From Kineococcus sp. TRM81007 (GTDB taxonomy: Bacteria; Actinomycetota; Actinomycetes; Actinomycetales; Kineococcaceae): a stretch of 35,059 nucleotides of DNA. Positions 21,614-27,420 of this stretch are shown piece after piece. The translations under genes were made by a program, and so were the position numbers. The first letter of the stretch is position 1. Every line of letters starts with the position of its first letter. The notes below the pieces were generated by a model. That model made no database searches and had not been told where the DNA came from. It worked only from the letters and a program-made list of their open reading frames with translations. The DNA is taken from assembly GCF_022669155.1 (NCBI RefSeq), contig NZ_JALBVB010000050.1:1-35059 (forward strand), written 5' to 3'.

Positions 21614-22207
21614 TCAGCGGCCGCCCGGCAGCGCGTCCTCCACGGAGGCGATCCCCTCGCGGTAGCGACGGGTGATCTCGTCGGTGCAGGCGTCCATGAC
21701 CTCCTGCACGCGGTGGCGGTCGGCGGACAGCTCGTGCTCCAGGCCCAGCAGGCGCTCCCGGGCGGCGGCCAGCTGCTCGTCGTCCATGGCCGTCAGGTCC
21801 GACAGGTGCGGGTCGGCGACGGCGGCCTCGGCGCGGCGGCGGTGCTCCCCCACGCGGCTGGGCTGCACCGTGGTGTGCCGGCCCATGCCGTGGTTCGTGC
21901 GGCGCGGGTCCGCCAGCACGTCGGTCAGGCGGGCCACCAGCTCGGCGTCGGTGCGCGCGGCGGACACGTCCGTGCCGCCGTCGACGCCGGAGCGCTGCTG
22001 CAGCTCGGCACCGAGCAGGTCCAGGCGGCCCTGCAGCAGCCGGCGGGCGTAGGAGAGGTCGGCCTCCTCCTGCTCGGCCAGGGTGCGCCGCTCGCGCAGC
22101 TCCGCGAGGTCGACGGTGCGCAGGTCCGCGACGAACTCCGGGGCGAGCACCCGGTCGAGCGCCCGGCGCCCGCCCCGCTGATACCCGCTGACGTGCTCCT
22201 CGTCCAT
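21614..22207 (-). CDS. rsiG: RsiG/AmfC-like c-di-GMP-binding anti-sigma factor
   Basis: 197-residue helical protein matching RsiG (older name AmfC, 'aerial mycelium formation protein'), which in Streptomyces holds sigma WhiG inactive when loaded with cyclic di-GMP. Both c-di-GMP-binding motifs E(X)3S(X)2R(X)3Q(X)3D are exact: E48-S52-R55-Q59-D63 and E157-S161-R164-Q168-D172. They lie on the two long helices expected to form the antiparallel coiled coil, separated by a linker (about 75-140). In a non-mycelial motile actinobacterium the partner would be a WhiG/FliA-type sigma, which is not in this window. ATG 22207 has GGAGG 5 nt upstream. The flanking order with ygfZ, fur and nitrobindin resembles the Streptomyces region around amfC. 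Confidence 0.86.
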   Translation of the reverse strand: MDEEHVSGYQRGGRRALDRVLAPEFVADLRTVDLAELRERRTLAEQEEADLSYARRLLQGRLDLLGAELQQRSGVDGGTDVSAARTDAELVARLTDVLADPRRTNHGMGRHTTVQPSRVGEHRRRAEAAVADPHLSDLTAMDDEQLAAARERLLGLEHELSADRHRVQEVMDACTDEITRRYREGIASVEDALPGGR

Positions 22208-22298: not shown

Positions 22299-23405
22299 TC
22301 AGGGGGCGACCACGACCTCCTGCGCCGCCGCGAGCGGCCGGTGCTGCTCCCCCGCGGCCGAGCCGGCCACCGCGAACAGCGGCGCGTCCACCGGCACGGA
22401 CCGCTTGAGCACCGCGAGGGCGACCGGTCCCAGCTCGTGGTGGCGCGCGGCCGTCGTCACGCGCCCCACGGCGCGCTCCGGGCCACCGGCGAGGACCACG
22501 TCGTCGCCGCGGCCGGGCAGGTCGTGGGAGGAGCCGTCCAGGTGCAGCAGCACCAGCCGGCGCGGCGGACGGCCCAGGTTGTGCACCTTGGCGACGGTCT
22601 CCTGCCCGCGGTAGCAGCCCTTGTGCAGGTGCACGGCCGTGCGCAGCCAGTCCAGCTCGTGCGGGATGGAGCGCTCGTCGGTCTCCATGCCCAGGCGCGG
22701 CCGCCACGCCTCCACGCGCAGCGCCTCGGCCGCCCAGCTGCCCGCCGGCCGCCGGCCCGCCACCCGGGCCGCCAGCTCGGCGCGCGGCACGAGCACCTCC
22801 CGCCAGGGCCGCTCGGCGCCCGGGTGCAGCGGGGTGGGCACGGCCGCGTAGCTCGCGGTGTCGGCCGCACCGCCCTCGTTCGCCGGGACGGGCCCGGGCC
22901 AGGGGTCCACCCACACCGGCCCGGCGCCGTCGCCCGGCTCCCTGCTCGACTCCCCCAGGACGGCCCACTCGGCGGTGACGTCCTCGACCTCCACGCGCAG
23001 CGCGAAGCGCATCTTCAGCAGCCACGCGACCAGCGGCTCCCGCTCGGCGGCCTCGACCGTGATCCAGGTGGCCCCACCGTCGTCGAGCAGGTGCAGGTCG
23101 TGCTCGATCCGGCCGGTCGGGCTCAGCACCAGGCTCTCGGTGCTGGTGCCGGCCGGCAGGCCGGTCAGGGCCTGGCTGGTGGTGCTGTGCAGCCAGCTGA
23201 GCCGGTCCGGGCCGCTGACGCGCACCACGCCGCGGTGGGACAGGTCCACGACGGCCTCGCCGCGCACGAGGGCGCGCTGCTCGGCCACCGGGTCGCCGTA
23301 GTGCCAGGCGGTGCCCGCGTCGGCGCCCTCCGCGGCGACAGCTCCGGGCAGGTCGAGCAGCGGCGAGCGCCGCACGGGGGCGGGGGCGGGGGTCTCGGTG
23401 CTCAC
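22299..23405 (-). CDS. ygfZ: YgfZ/GcvT family folate-binding protein (Fe-S cluster assembly factor)
   Basis: 368-residue tetrahydrofolate-binding protein related to the glycine cleavage T-protein. YgfZ helps maintain or repair certain Fe-S enzymes such as MiaB. The diagnostic motif KGCYRGQE (262-269) with its redox-active Cys265 is intact; the N-terminal folate domain (about 40-145) includes DLSHRGVVRVSGPDR and the C-terminal beta-barrel begins near 285. Start GTG 23405 overlaps the fur-type stop by 4 nt (GTGA) and has GGAGG a few nt upstream, so it is cotranslated with the regulator gene. A longer open frame upstream belongs to the overlapped gene. Confidence 0.92.
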   Translation of the reverse strand: MSTETPAPAPVRRSPLLDLPGAVAAEGADAGTAWHYGDPVAEQRALVRGEAVVDLSHRGVVRVSGPDRLSWLHSTTSQALTGLPAGTSTESLVLSPTGRIEHDLHLLDDGGATWITVEAAEREPLVAWLLKMRFALRVEVEDVTAEWAVLGESSREPGDGAGPVWVDPWPGPVPANEGGAADTASYAAVPTPLHPGAERPWREVLVPRAELAARVAGRRPAGSWAAEALRVEAWRPRLGMETDERSIPHELDWLRTAVHLHKGCYRGQETVAKVHNLGRPPRRLVLLHLDGSSHDLPGRGDDVVLAGGPERAVGRVTTAARHHELGPVALAVLKRSVPVDAPLFAVAGSAAGEQHRPLAAAQEVVVAP

Positions 23406-23863
23406 GGTTCCTCCGGCGTCTGGGGGGTGGGGCCGGCGCCGCAGGCGGCGCAGCGTCCGCGCAGCGCCAGGTGCGCGACGTCGGCGGTGAACCCGGTGCG
23501 CCGGCGCAGGTCGGCGGCCAGCTCGGCGGCCGCGTCGGCCGGGGCCTCGGCGACGGCCCCGCACCCGTCGCACACCAGGTGCAGGTGGCCGCCGTGCTCG
23601 ACGGCGTGGAAGGTGTCGGCGCGCCGGTCCAGCGCGGTGCGGGCCACCAGGCCCAGCTCCTCCAGCAGGGCCAGGGCGCGGTAGACCGTGGAGGCGTCCA
23701 CGGCGGGCGCGGCGCCGTCGGCGCGCAGGTCCGCCAGCACCTCCTCGGGCGTGGCGTGGCCCAGGCGGCGCACGGACGACAGGACGCGCTCGCGCTGGGG
23801 GGTGCGGCGGAGCCCCCGCGCGTGCAGGGCCTCGCCGAGCGGGGCGGGGAGCGCGGGCGTCAG
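23402..23863 (-). CDS. Fur family metalloregulator, apparent CTG start
   Basis: About 153-residue metal-responsive repressor. The winged helix includes LRRTPQRERVLSSV, then HATPEEVLADL and the recognition segment DASTVYRALALLEELGLV (about 56-73); the metal domain has HAVEHGGHLHLVC (H86, H90, H93, H95) and two CxxC zinc pairs, C98/C101 and C138/C141. In Streptomyces the Fur protein next to ygfZ and nitrobindin is the nickel regulator Nur, so Nur is a candidate, but Zur or another specificity cannot be excluded. No ATG, GTG or TTG in frame precedes the helix-turn-helix. CTG 23863, overlapping the upstream stop as CTGA, is the best start; a GTG at codon 31 would remove the first helix. Confidence 0.86.
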   Translation of the reverse strand: MTPALPAPLGEALHARGLRRTPQRERVLSSVRRLGHATPEEVLADLRADGAAPAVDASTVYRALALLEELGLVARTALDRRADTFHAVEHGGHLHLVCDGCGAVAEAPADAAAELAADLRRRTGFTADVAHLALRGRCAACGAGPTPQTPEEP

Positions 23864-24408
23864 GACACCCGCTTCAGCCGCGCCGACGCGTAGCTGCGCA
23901 TCGGGTGGCCGCCGAGCGCGACGTCCAGCGCCCACAGCAGGTCGCCCTCCACGAGCCCGTACATGCGCGTGGCGGCGGTGTACTCGTGGGCGGTGGTGGT
24001 GCGGGCGACCACGTCGGTGGACAGGTCGATGCGCGGGCCGGTGGCCTCGCCGACGAGGACCTCCACGACACCGGTGGGGTGGGCCAGCACGACCTCCAGG
24101 TCCACCGGGCGGGGTCCGTCGGCGGGCGCGGGGGCCGCCGGGTCCAGCGGGCGCGGGCGCCAGTAGCCGGTCTCGACGTCGAGGGGGTCGGTGGTGCTGC
24201 CCGCCTCGTCGAGGGCCCACGTGGTGGAGGTGTAGCTCAGGAAGTCGCGCCCGTCGTGGGAGAACTCCACGACCTGCCCGAAGCGGGTGTCCTCACCGCG
24301 CGCGGGGTGGCCGAGGACGCCGGCGCCCTCCCAGCGGCCCAGCAGCCAGGACAGCGGGACCAGCGGGAGCGGCGTGTCGGTGCGCAGGGGCACGGGTGCT
24401 CCGGCCAC
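23860..24408 (-). CDS. Nitrobindin-like FABP-family beta-barrel protein lacking the haem His
   Basis: 182-residue ten-stranded beta-barrel of the nitrobindin/THAP4 family; true members bind ferric haem and isomerise peroxynitrite. The family motif GxWxGxG is present as GRWEGAG (24-30). At the C-terminus, where nitrobindins have the axial His in an H-L-x-A-x-L-x-R pattern, this protein reads YASARLKR, putting Tyr173 at the ligand position. H168 lies five residues earlier, at a different place in the pattern. It is therefore best called nitrobindin-like. GTG 24408 begins 3 nt after the stop of a 35-codon membrane-protein gene; the gene ends in CTGA with the fur-type start. Confidence 0.84.
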   Translation of the reverse strand: MAGAPVPLRTDTPLPLVPLSWLLGRWEGAGVLGHPARGEDTRFGQVVEFSHDGRDFLSYTSTTWALDEAGSTTDPLDVETGYWRPRPLDPAAPAPADGPRPVDLEVVLAHPTGVVEVLVGEATGPRIDLSTDVVARTTTAHEYTAATRMYGLVEGDLLWALDVALGGHPMRSYASARLKRVS

Positions 24409-24411
24409 GGC

Positions 24412-24519
24412 TCAGCGCTGTCCCTTGTAGAGGCGGTACACCACGAAGCCGGCGAACCACGCGATCACGATGCTGACCACGATCAGCAGGACGAGGAAGA
24501 AGACTTCGAGCGCGTGCAC
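24412..24519 (-). CDS. 35-residue single-pass membrane protein
   Basis: Very short gene leading the nitrobindin-fur-ygfZ operon. The product has a short N-terminus (VHALE), one hydrophobic helix (about residues 6-27, [19 protein letters not shown] core) and a basic C-terminus [10 protein letters not shown], so the C-terminus should be cytoplasmic by the positive-inside rule. Support for its being real: a TACGCT -10 ends exactly 6 nt before its GTG, as for many genes here; its stop is only 3 nt from the nitrobindin start; and without it the operon would have no obvious promoter-proximal gene. No function is known to me. Small single-pass proteins often modulate larger membrane complexes, but no partner can be named. 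Confidence 0.72.
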
Positions 24520-25399: not shown

Positions 25400-25428
25400 C
25401 CCGCGATCCTCCCGCACACCCCTGCCGG

Positions 25429-25457
25429 GCACCGCACCGCCGCGGTCGGTGCGGTGC
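25429..25457. repeat. Inverted repeat in the glnR divergent region
   Basis: Perfect 10-bp inverted repeat GCACCGCACC (25429-25438) / GGTGCGGTGC (25448-25457) around a 9-nt centre. It lies between the divergent membrane-protein and glnR promoters and could be an operator, or simply a hairpin. A GGTGC-rich direct-repeat tail continues to about 25461. Confidence 0.45.
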
Positions 25458-25503
25458 GGTGCCGCGCGGGCGGTGCGCGGACCGGCACGGGGTGGCCGGC
25501 CGG

Positions 25504-25509
25504 TAAACT
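25504..25509 (+). promoter_or_regulatory. Predicted -10 of the glnR promoter
   Basis: TAAACT, the most AT-rich hexamer in the 168-bp gap, predicts a start near 25516 and a leader of about 52 nt. The leader holds a palindromic GGGGCGCCCGGGCGCCCC hairpin (about 25519-25536) and a purine-rich ribosome site GGAGGGCGGGAG before GTG 25568. Confidence 0.45.
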
Positions 25510-25567
25510 GCAGGTTCGGCGGGGCGCCCGGGCGCCCCCTCCAGGCGGACGGAGGGCGGGAGACCGG

Positions 25568-26437
25568 GTGGCCCAGATCCTCGTGCTGACGAACGCGCTG
25601 ACGCCCTCCACCGAGGTGCTGCCGGCGCTGGGGCTGCTGCCGCACAGCGTCCGCGTGCTGCCGGCGGAGGCGTCGGTCCTGGTGGACGGCCCCCCGTCGG
25701 ACGCCGTGCTGGTCGACGGGCGCCGCGAGCTGGCCGCCGCCCGCTCGCTGTGCCGGCTGCTGCGCACCACCGGGCTGTCGCAGCCCCTGCTGCTGGTGCT
25801 GACCGAGGGCGGCATGGCCGCGGTCGCCGCGGACTGGGGCGCCGACGACGTCCTGCTCGACACCTGCGGGCCGGCCGAGCTGGACGCGCGGCTGCGGCTG
25901 GCGGCCGGGCGCGCCCACGGCGTGGCGGCCGAGGCGCCGGACGCGGGCGCCGGGGAGATCCGGGCCGGGGACGTCGTCATCGACGAGACCGCCTACTCGG
26001 CGCGGGTGCGCGGGCGCCAGCTGGACCTGACGTACAAGGAGTTCGAGCTGCTGAAGCACCTCGCCCAGCACCCCGGCCGGGTGTTCACCCGCGCCCAGCT
26101 GCTGCAGGAGGTGTGGGGCTACGACTACTTCGGCGGCACCCGCACCGTGGACGTCCACGTGCGGCGCCTGCGGGCGAAGCTGGGCGCCGAGCACGAGGGC
26201 GCCATCGGCACGGTCCGCAACGTGGGGTACCGGTTCGTCTCCCACGGCCGCGAGGGCGCGGGCGCACCGGCCGGCGACGCACCGGCCGGCGACGCACCGG
26301 CCGGCGACGCACCGGGCGAGGAGCTGCTGGACGACGAGGCGGCGCCGGGCTTCCCGGCGAGCGGCGGGACCGACGGGTCGCCGGGCGCGGCCGGCGCGGT
26401 GCCCCGGCCGCTGCGCAGCGCCCCGCGGCCGAGGTGA
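25568..26437 (+). CDS. glnR: GlnR-type atypical response regulator (nitrogen control)
   Basis: OmpR-family regulator of 289 residues, matching actinobacterial GlnR (Rv0818 group), which controls nitrogen assimilation. The receiver-like domain (1-112) starts [20 protein letters not shown] and keeps an Asp at the expected site (D50, VLVDGRR) but lacks the usual acidic pocket, consistent with GlnR working as an orphan, unphosphorylated homodimer. The winged helix (about 132-225) has [34 protein letters not shown] and VRNVGYRF. The C-terminal tail after 225 is an extension with a triple APAGD repeat and acidic, Gly/Pro-rich sequence, longer than in mycobacteria. The next gene, mshD, overlaps by 4 nt (GTGA), the same order as Rv0818-Rv0819. 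Confidence 0.92.
26264..26316 (+). repeat. 15-bp tandem repeat inside glnR
   Basis: Three full identical units GCACCGGCCGGCGAC (26264-26278, 26279-26293, 26294-26308) and a partial fourth (26309-26316). They encode APAGD repeats in the disordered tail. Unit length is a multiple of three, so copy changes keep the frame. Confidence 0.9.
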
Positions 26438-27420
26438 GCGGCCAGGTGGGCGGCCAGGTGGGTGGCGAGGCGGGTGGCGAGGCGGGTGCGCGCCGCCTCG
26501 AGGTCGTGGACGGCCCGGTGGCGCCGGCGGTGCGCGCGGGGGTGGAGCGGCTGGCCGCCGCGGTCTCGGCGGCCGACGGCACGGACGCCGTGAGCGAGGA
26601 CGCCCTGCTGCGGCTGCGCACGGGCGGCGACGGTGTGCGGCACCTGCTGCTGCACGCCCCGGTGGACGGGGCGGCGGCCGGCGACGCGGCCGGCGGGTCG
26701 GTGCCGGCCGGGTACGCGCAGCTGGCGGTGGCCGGGGAGGACCTGGCGGGCGAGCTGCTGGTGCACCCGTCGGCGCGCCGGCGCGGGCACGGGCGCGCCC
26801 TGCTGGAGCGGGTGGGTGAGCTGGCCGCGGGCCGGCGCGCGCTGCTGTGGGCGCACGGGGACTCCCCCGCCGCCGCGGCGCTGGCCGCGGGCGCGGGCTG
26901 GGAGCGCGCGCGCGAGCTGCTGCGCATGCAGCGCGCCACCGCCGGGCTGGCGGAGCTCGCCGAGCCGGCCCTGCCGCCCGGGGTGCGGGTGCGCCCGTTC
27001 GTCCCGGGTGCCGACGAGGCGGCGTGGACGGCCCTGAACGCGGCGGCGTTCGCGCAGCACCCCGAGCAGGGCCGCTGGACGGTGGAGGACCTGCGGCTGC
27101 GCGAGGGCGAGGAGTGGTTCGACCCGTCGGTCCTCCTGCTGGCGCAGGGGTCGGAGGGGCTGCTGGGGTTCTGCTGGATGAAGGTGCAGCCGCACGTCTC
27201 GGAGCTGTACGTGCTGGGGGTGCACCCGGGCGCGGCGGGGCGCGGGCTGGGGCGGGCGCTGCTGGTGCGGGGGCTGCGCGCGGTGGCGGGGCCGGGGGCG
27301 CCGGGCGAGGTGGAGCTGTACGTGGACGGCGGCAACGTCCCCGCGGTGCGGCTGTACGAGGCGCTGGGCTTCGCGCGGGCCGCGGTGGACGTGCAGTACG
27401 CGAGCGCGCCGGGGTCCTGA
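26434..27420 (+). CDS. mshD: Mycothiol synthase (mycothiol acetyltransferase)
   Basis: Last enzyme of mycothiol synthesis: transfers acetyl from acetyl-CoA to Cys-GlcN-Ins. 328 residues with two GNAT domains. The N-terminal half has a degenerate acetyl-CoA loop around [19 protein letters not shown]; the active C-terminal half has [13 protein letters not shown], the substrate loop FCWMKVQ and the CoA-binding [17 protein letters not shown], ending VRLYEALGF. Context supports MshD over another GNAT: it follows glnR as in Rv0818-Rv0819 and overlaps it by 4 nt. The N-terminus has an added Gly/Gln/Val repeat coded by a 12-bp tandem array, so a start at GTG 26446 or 26458 is possible. Confidence 0.9.
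26440..26487 (+). repeat. 12-bp tandem repeat at the 5' end of mshD
   Basis: Four 12-bp units (26440-26451, 26452-26463, 26464-26475, 26476-26487), the first two GGCCAGGTGGG(C/T), the last two identical GGCGAGGCGGGT. They encode [16 protein letters not shown] and carry two alternative GTG start codons. Confidence 0.85.

Follow-up and report, generated by a model that had tools for sequence, protein, structure and literature searches.

The window, the whole 35,059-nucleotide stretch of DNA from Kineococcus sp. TRM81007 analyzed here, carries at 23860..24408 on the minus strand a gene with a GTG start for a 182-amino-acid protein of the nitrobindin fold, assigned by PF08768, AlphaFold, and VIA. 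It is the single PF08768 (THAP4_heme-bd) copy of the genome (4.2 Mb, 60 contigs), matches this family with 160.7 bits (cut-off, 25), and has the C terminus ...GGHPMRSYASARLKRVS. The AlphaFold model (pLDDT, 91.8; pTM, 0.86; 45 sequences) aligns with solved nitrobindins at VIA Z scores of 22.3 to 23.5, and Pfam, DSSP on the model, and VIA all point to the 10-stranded β-barrel of the family. Among solved structures, phmmer retrieved Rv0813c as the best match (2fwv, 69.8 bits), along with At1g79260 (At-Nb) and Rv2717c. The NCBIfam model for peroxynitrite isomerase, NF045819, scores 72.5 bits, far below its curated cut-off of 225. The GxWxGxG motif of the first strand is present as GRWEGAG (residues 24 to 30; 24319..24339, minus strand), and the initial annotation was right to describe it as retained. 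In the family alignment, W26, G28, and G30 are invariant in rows with and without the axial heme-binding histidine (His-type and non-His rows), and the frequency of G24 is 1.00 and 0.94, respectively.

The neighboring genes are likewise those that had been named at the outset, a Fur-family gene and the gene of the Fe-S protein YgfZ, and the three reading frames overlap on the minus strand in the order nitrobindin, fur, ygfZ. The start of fur (23402..23866; PF01475, 66.1 bits) overlaps the nitrobindin stop codon, and the start of ygfZ (22299..23405; TIGR03317, 102 bits; cut-off, 49) overlaps the fur stop. The closest solved relative of the Fur-family regulator is Nur (3EYY), with 114 bits against 46 for the next structure. 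The nickel-site histidines of 3EYY, which we take to be those numbered 70, 72, and 126, correspond to Arg, Ala, and His in the window's Fur protein, so that the Nur site is not preserved and the protein may, as far as its sequence indicates, sense another metal. The portion of PMC7055735 available describes a three-His nickel site in Nur that is possibly a crystallization artifact. YgfZ is IBA57-like and assigned to Fe-S cluster assembly or insertion, and the accessible text of PMC10002905 presents it as the homologue of IBA57 in bacteria and links it to the metabolism of Fe-S clusters.

A 35-amino-acid open reading frame (24412..24519, minus strand) ends 3 nucleotides before the nitrobindin start and encodes a putative single-helix microprotein that has a single hydrophobic segment and whose tail reads YRLYKGQR; it likewise lies upstream of the nitrobindin gene in seven further loci (L002, L011, L012, L065, L117, L122, and L129). 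With a profile of this microprotein, 97 of 221 loci show an upstream match: 85 of the 168 that have ygfZ and 12 of the 53 that lack it. Every one of these 97 matches is on the same strand as the nitrobindin gene and ends between −126 and +7 nucleotides from the start of the nitrobindin domain. The pooled pN/pS of the microprotein is 0.33 in the seven genus members with an open reading frame of the same length, and the profile found no match at the Kineosporia loci L143 to L145. A little beyond ygfZ lies a gene for an RsiG-family protein (21614-22207, minus strand; PF22802, 83.5 bits), RsiG being an anti-sigma type known from cyclic-di-GMP control. On the plus strand, at about 25400 to 27420, the open reading frames appear to encode a winged-helix response-regulator-like protein and, after it, a GNAT protein of two domains that is similar to mycothiol synthase.

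Residue 173 and selection on the gene

The axial-strand segment of the protein reads SYASARLKR, and its tyrosine, Tyr173 (codon TAC; 23890..23892, minus strand), occupies the column of the axial heme ligand, where it aligns with His158 of At-Nb, residue 155 of Rv2717c, and His216 of Rv0813c. phmmer gives this register, as does MAFFT when the protein is aligned with At-Nb and Rv0813c. The VIA alignments, by their end ranges, pair model residue 181 with At-Nb 166, 182 with Rv2717c 164, and 182 with Rv0813c 225 and give the same register on the presumption of a gapless stretch from residue 173 to the C terminus. Residue 155 of Rv2717c is probably the axial histidine of Mt-Nb. The axial histidine is therefore absent from the protein, with Tyr173 in its place, which bears out the initial annotation. 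The same annotation named His168 (23905..23907, minus strand) as an alternative ligand, to be checked by alignment to solved nitrobindins; that alignment puts Tyr173, rather than His168, in the axial column. In the AlphaFold model, His168 is predicted by DSSP to lie within the hairpin turn of residues 166 to 170, and in 1 of 11 family members (L002) it is replaced by Val, both of which rule against it and make it an unlikely ligand.

The nearest named relative of the protein is from Kineococcus rubinsiae (84%, residues 5 to 182), and a PF08768 copy is found in 10 of the 11 genomes of the genus. Tyrosine occupies the axial position in all 11 loci of the window's family (10 from the genus and 1 from a sister genus), and the codon is TAC in 9 of the 9 genus members with aligned codons, so Tyr173 is no sequencing error. 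The median dN/dS within the genus is 0.178 (range, 0.121 to 0.281; 36 pairs), and the gene is under purifying selection. The genome also has a ChdC/HemQ-family gene, which makes heme shortage an unlikely reason for the loss of the histidine.

Axial residue across the order

The survey comprised 295 loci, with the axial residue taken from a single alignment. It included every listed PF08768 match in 149 genomes sampled evenly across the order. Because the locus sets overlap and may contain a genome more than once, the 295 loci are not independent. The 142 loci of the order, with the two fragments of a split gene taken as one locus, L008 drawn from the genus search, and L289 being a fragment, consist of 136 loci of the fur/ygfZ-linked type and 6 unlinked paralogs, the latter all with histidine. 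Among the linked-type loci the axial residue is Tyr in 76, His in 49, Arg in 6, and Gln, Val, Phe, or Asp in 1 each, and 1 locus is truncated. A residue other than histidine is thus found at 86 of the 135 scorable linked-type loci, and in 76 of these 86 it is tyrosine. All linked-type loci of families f9, f10, f14, and f20 have tyrosine, and family f8 shows a mixture (Arg 6, Tyr 3, Val 1). In the order sample, family f4 gave a PF08768 match in 0 of 10 genomes; the copies of family f12 are very divergent, yet 9 of 10 keep the tyrosine.

The 15 loci that lack Gly151, a marker of the linked type, have histidine in 14 cases and are truncated in the other, and fur or ygfZ flanks none of them. Among all loci, the sampled flank contains ygfZ at 80 of 87 Tyr-type loci, at all 11 other non-His loci, and at 147 of 196 His-type loci; for fur the counts are 20, 1, and 98, respectively. 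The flanks often span just 1.5 kb, which makes these counts minimum values, and unlinked paralogs are part of the His-type total. With so small a share of Tyr-type flanks carrying fur, even as a lower bound, compared with ygfZ, linkage to fur is no hallmark of His-less copies and was rejected as an explanation. In family f37, for which 13 loci were fetched, all eight nur/ygfZ-linked copies have Tyr and lack Lys at position 141, and all five unlinked copies have His and Lys141. The Fur neighbor in f37 differs very little from S. coelicolor Nur (3EYY), and we infer from this that the family is Streptomyces. Some genomes, such as G318, carry both a linked Tyr copy and an unlinked His paralog (L128 and L129 in G318).

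A tree of 119 rows, 48 of them non-His, built without the axial column, requires at least seven changes between His and non-His, four of them forced by starred branches, and an earlier tree of 126 rows likewise gave seven; both were built quickly and contain many weak branches, and the window falls in no starred set of the second. Constraining all 48 non-His rows together lowers the log likelihood by 169.9, and the AU test rejects a single origin of the non-His state (P = 1.4e−5). Loss of the axial histidine is polyphyletic. Because a single C-to-T transition (CAC to TAC) converts His to Tyr, recurrence alone is weak evidence for selection; the persistence of tyrosine in deep clades is stronger evidence, and its fixation within the deep Tyr clades f9, f10, f14, and f20 indicates that the residue has some role.

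Residues that change with, or independently of, the axial histidine

Lys141 disappears together with the axial histidine. It is present at 181 of the 196 His-type loci but at 0 of the 87 Tyr-type loci, and among the 11 other loci it occurs in 1, the Gln variant L021; 5 of the 43 nonredundant Tyr rows have a gap at this position. In the genus, residue 141 (23986..23988, minus strand) is His, and the sister genus (L011) has Ala. The position falls between the columns of Val128 and Ile131 of At-Nb, which lie within 4 Å of the heme according to the available part of a 2023 review (PMC10135655), and His141 of the genus might itself contact heme. The same text gives Thr40 of At-Nb as hydrogen bonded to a heme propionate (PMC10135655), and Thr36 represents its column. 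Threonine occurs here at 145 of the 196 His-type loci, compared with 4 of the 87 loci of Tyr type; it is also mostly missing from the His-type families f6, f7, and f19, and with many His-type copies lacking it, Thr36 was set aside as a clean marker.

In five hand-picked comparisons between near relatives with His and Tyr (L022 being the His partner in two), positions 36 and 141 both changed in all five. The Gln variant L021 keeps Thr36 and Lys141, and at both positions the Asn variant L130 matches its His relative L174, so the joint loss belongs to tyrosine and not to every loss of histidine. Independent-pairs tests run in the right direction for K141, T36, and M163, with too few pairs to reach significance.

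On the distal side, His110 (24079..24081, minus strand) occupies the column of At-Nb Gln96 in the MAFFT alignment and probably that of Mt-Nb His85. This histidine is kept in 47 of 49 His-type but only 15 of 76 Tyr-type loci of the order, and 11 of these 15 are the window's family, in which it is present at every locus. A Tyr clade of 17 rows has remodeled contact columns, with Asp in 11 and Glu in 3 in place of the distal His and Trp in 17 of 17 at the Met75 column. The window's lineage keeps His110, Thr112, and Leu76. A score over 12 contact columns bears out this remodeling clearly for the large Tyr clade. By the same score, the window's protein has a residual of −1.3 SD and a matched-set share of 0.031, against 0.003 to 0.56 in eight His controls, and the contact columns of the Tyr rows L029 and L085 are undecayed (shares of 0.32 and 0.67). 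The window's copy is thus a mild, and perhaps early, member of the series.

Other positions mostly stay conserved whatever the axial residue. The deep Arg-x-Tyr site, Arg148-Met-Tyr150 in the window (23959..23967, minus strand), has Arg190-x-Tyr192 as its aligned counterpart in Rv0813c. Arg148 is present at every one of the 196 His-type loci and at 82 of the 87 Tyr-type loci. The full Arg-x-Tyr motif occurs in 53 of the 54 His-type rows that have ygfZ, in 28 of the 36 remaining His-type rows, and in 23 of the 36 rows without the axial histidine. Trp21, Arg136, Gly151, and Trp159 are common to the ygfZ-linked His and Tyr types but not to the 12 rows of unlinked paralogs, which indicates that the linked type has constraints of its own, independent of the axial residue.

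Interpretation and relation to known systems

On balance, the protein is probably a nitrobindin-fold barrel of the actinobacterial fur/ygfZ-linked type in which the canonical heme site has fallen into disuse and the conserved function does not depend on heme. The loss of histidine would then reflect repeated abandonment of canonical heme binding rather than a simple exchange of ligands. In the linked type, the axial histidine has disappeared several times, most often in favor of tyrosine; Lys141 went with it, as did further heme-contact residues in many lineages. Selection maintained the barrel, its deep Arg148-x-Tyr150 site, and the residues that mark the ygfZ-linked type. The deep cavity would most likely bind a small molecule that is hydrophobic or bears a carboxylate, the barrel may work in step with YgfZ-assisted Fe-S maintenance, and Tyr173 may form part of a remodeled cavity mouth. 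The idea of a ligand at the deep site leans on the abstract of Shepard's 2007 study: a small cyclic ligand was reportedly bound by Tyr192 of Rv0813c far inside the cavity, and the Arg-x-Tyr motif is said to have been compared with the carboxylate-binding triad of fatty-acid-binding proteins. We take Arg190-x-Tyr192 to be the ligand site described there. The main weakness of the heme-loss reading is that the contact columns of the window's protein overlap those of His-type controls.

A broader and more tentative proposal is that an actinobacterial heme protein was repeatedly recruited as a partner in ygfZ operons, with tyrosine taking over the iron position. It would be either a carrier of Tyr-ligated ferric heme or a heme-free barrel whose bound ligand serves Fe-S repair, and in many lineages a one-helix membrane microprotein would be encoded just upstream of it. 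If true, nitrobindin would have been converted convergently into a novel type of accessory factor for Fe-S proteins.

The chief rival to heme loss, although a doubtful one, is that Tyr173 is a real axial ligand and the protein a carrier or sink of ferric, tyrosinate-ligated heme rather than an NO or peroxynitrite enzyme, possibly with His110 on the distal side. Tyrosine is by far the commonest replacement, arose polyphyletically, persists in deep clades, and sits in a column that structure alignment shows to be equivalent to the axial one; the window's family keeps His110, its contact columns are without clear decay, and the gene adjoins those of Fur and YgfZ. Against this, related copies have Arg, Val, or Phe, which are implausible iron ligands, Lys141 never accompanies Tyr, the distal His is rare among Tyr-type loci of the order, and Tyr is a single transition away from His. 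The initial annotation had allowed for binding of heme through Tyr, another ligand, or a metal; its placement of Tyr173 in the axial column stands, but the variety of replacements, the loss of Lys141 with the histidine, and the frequent loss of other contacts argue against continued service of this position to heme and render ligation by Tyr173 unlikely.

It is less probable still that heme is bound through His110 or His141, or without a protein ligand, with Tyr173 a spectator. The genus conserves both histidines, and their columns belong to the pocket or adjoin it, but position 141 is Ala in the sister genus, His110 is no compensating gain, being as well kept in His-type copies, and His168 lies in a loop and varies. 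Neutral decay of a gene on its way to loss, which would make Tyr173 meaningless, could appeal to the divergent or copy-less related families f12 and f4 but is hardly credible given the low dN/dS of the genus, the identical Tyr codon in its members, and the tyrosine at every locus of the family. Direct binding of a metal ion through Tyr173, His110, and His141 is the most improbable reading, since the tabulated Tyr rows share no common set of metal ligands and 67 of the 87 Tyr-type loci have no fur in the flank sampled, despite the Fur-family neighbor and three possible ligands in or near the mouth of the pocket.

With the nitrobindins At1g79260, Rv2717c/Mt-Nb, and the C-terminal domain of THAP4, the window's protein has in common the fold (VIA Z, 22.9 to 23.5), the PF08768 match, the GxWxGxG motif, and the conserved Glu79 and Arg148; it differs from them in having Tyr for the axial His, in the loss of Lys141, and in several changed contacts. 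It shares the deep Arg-x-Tyr motif with Rv0813c, which keeps His216 in the axial column where the window's protein has Tyr. Rv0813c and Cg2850 are treated as FABP-like calycin proteins in the accessible text of PMC10105947; resemblance to human FABP is at the level of fold only (VIA Z, about 10.5).

The bare absence of the axial histidine from family members is not new, since the UniProt label "ferric nitrobindin-like protein" is used for members without the iron-binding His. To our knowledge, no ligand, mechanism, or phylogeny is attached to this label. In the open-licence literature searched, the phrase "ferric nitrobindin-like" had no match, and the texts available there yielded no description of a Tyr-type nitrobindin. 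The 2023 review, citing De Simone 2016, states in its available part that all nitrobindin-like proteins from bacteria to humans keep the iron-binding His158 (PMC10135655). For the window's clade the census contradicts this, non-His residues being the majority at scorable linked-type loci. Because most linked-type copies lack the axial histidine and its loss is polyphyletic, the names "nitrobindin" and "peroxynitrite isomerase" are not transferable to them.

The SCO4179-type nitrobindin-like gene adjoins a nur/fur homologue, and in 2013 the fur-linked copy of Streptomyces was proposed to relay NO, according to the accessible sections of PMC4255298. The proposal depends on the heme site, and the axial His is missing in the eight Streptomyces-like linked loci fetched. 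These loci resemble the window in having Tyr (8/8) and lie beside a Nur nearly identical to 3EYY, but their distal column is Arg where the window's protein has His, and their Fur neighbor keeps the His70 and His72 columns of 3EYY, which are Arg and Ala in the window. Genomes that carry both a linked Tyr copy and an unlinked His paralog provide a natural experiment with which heme chemistry could be separated from whatever YgfZ-linked work the barrel may do.
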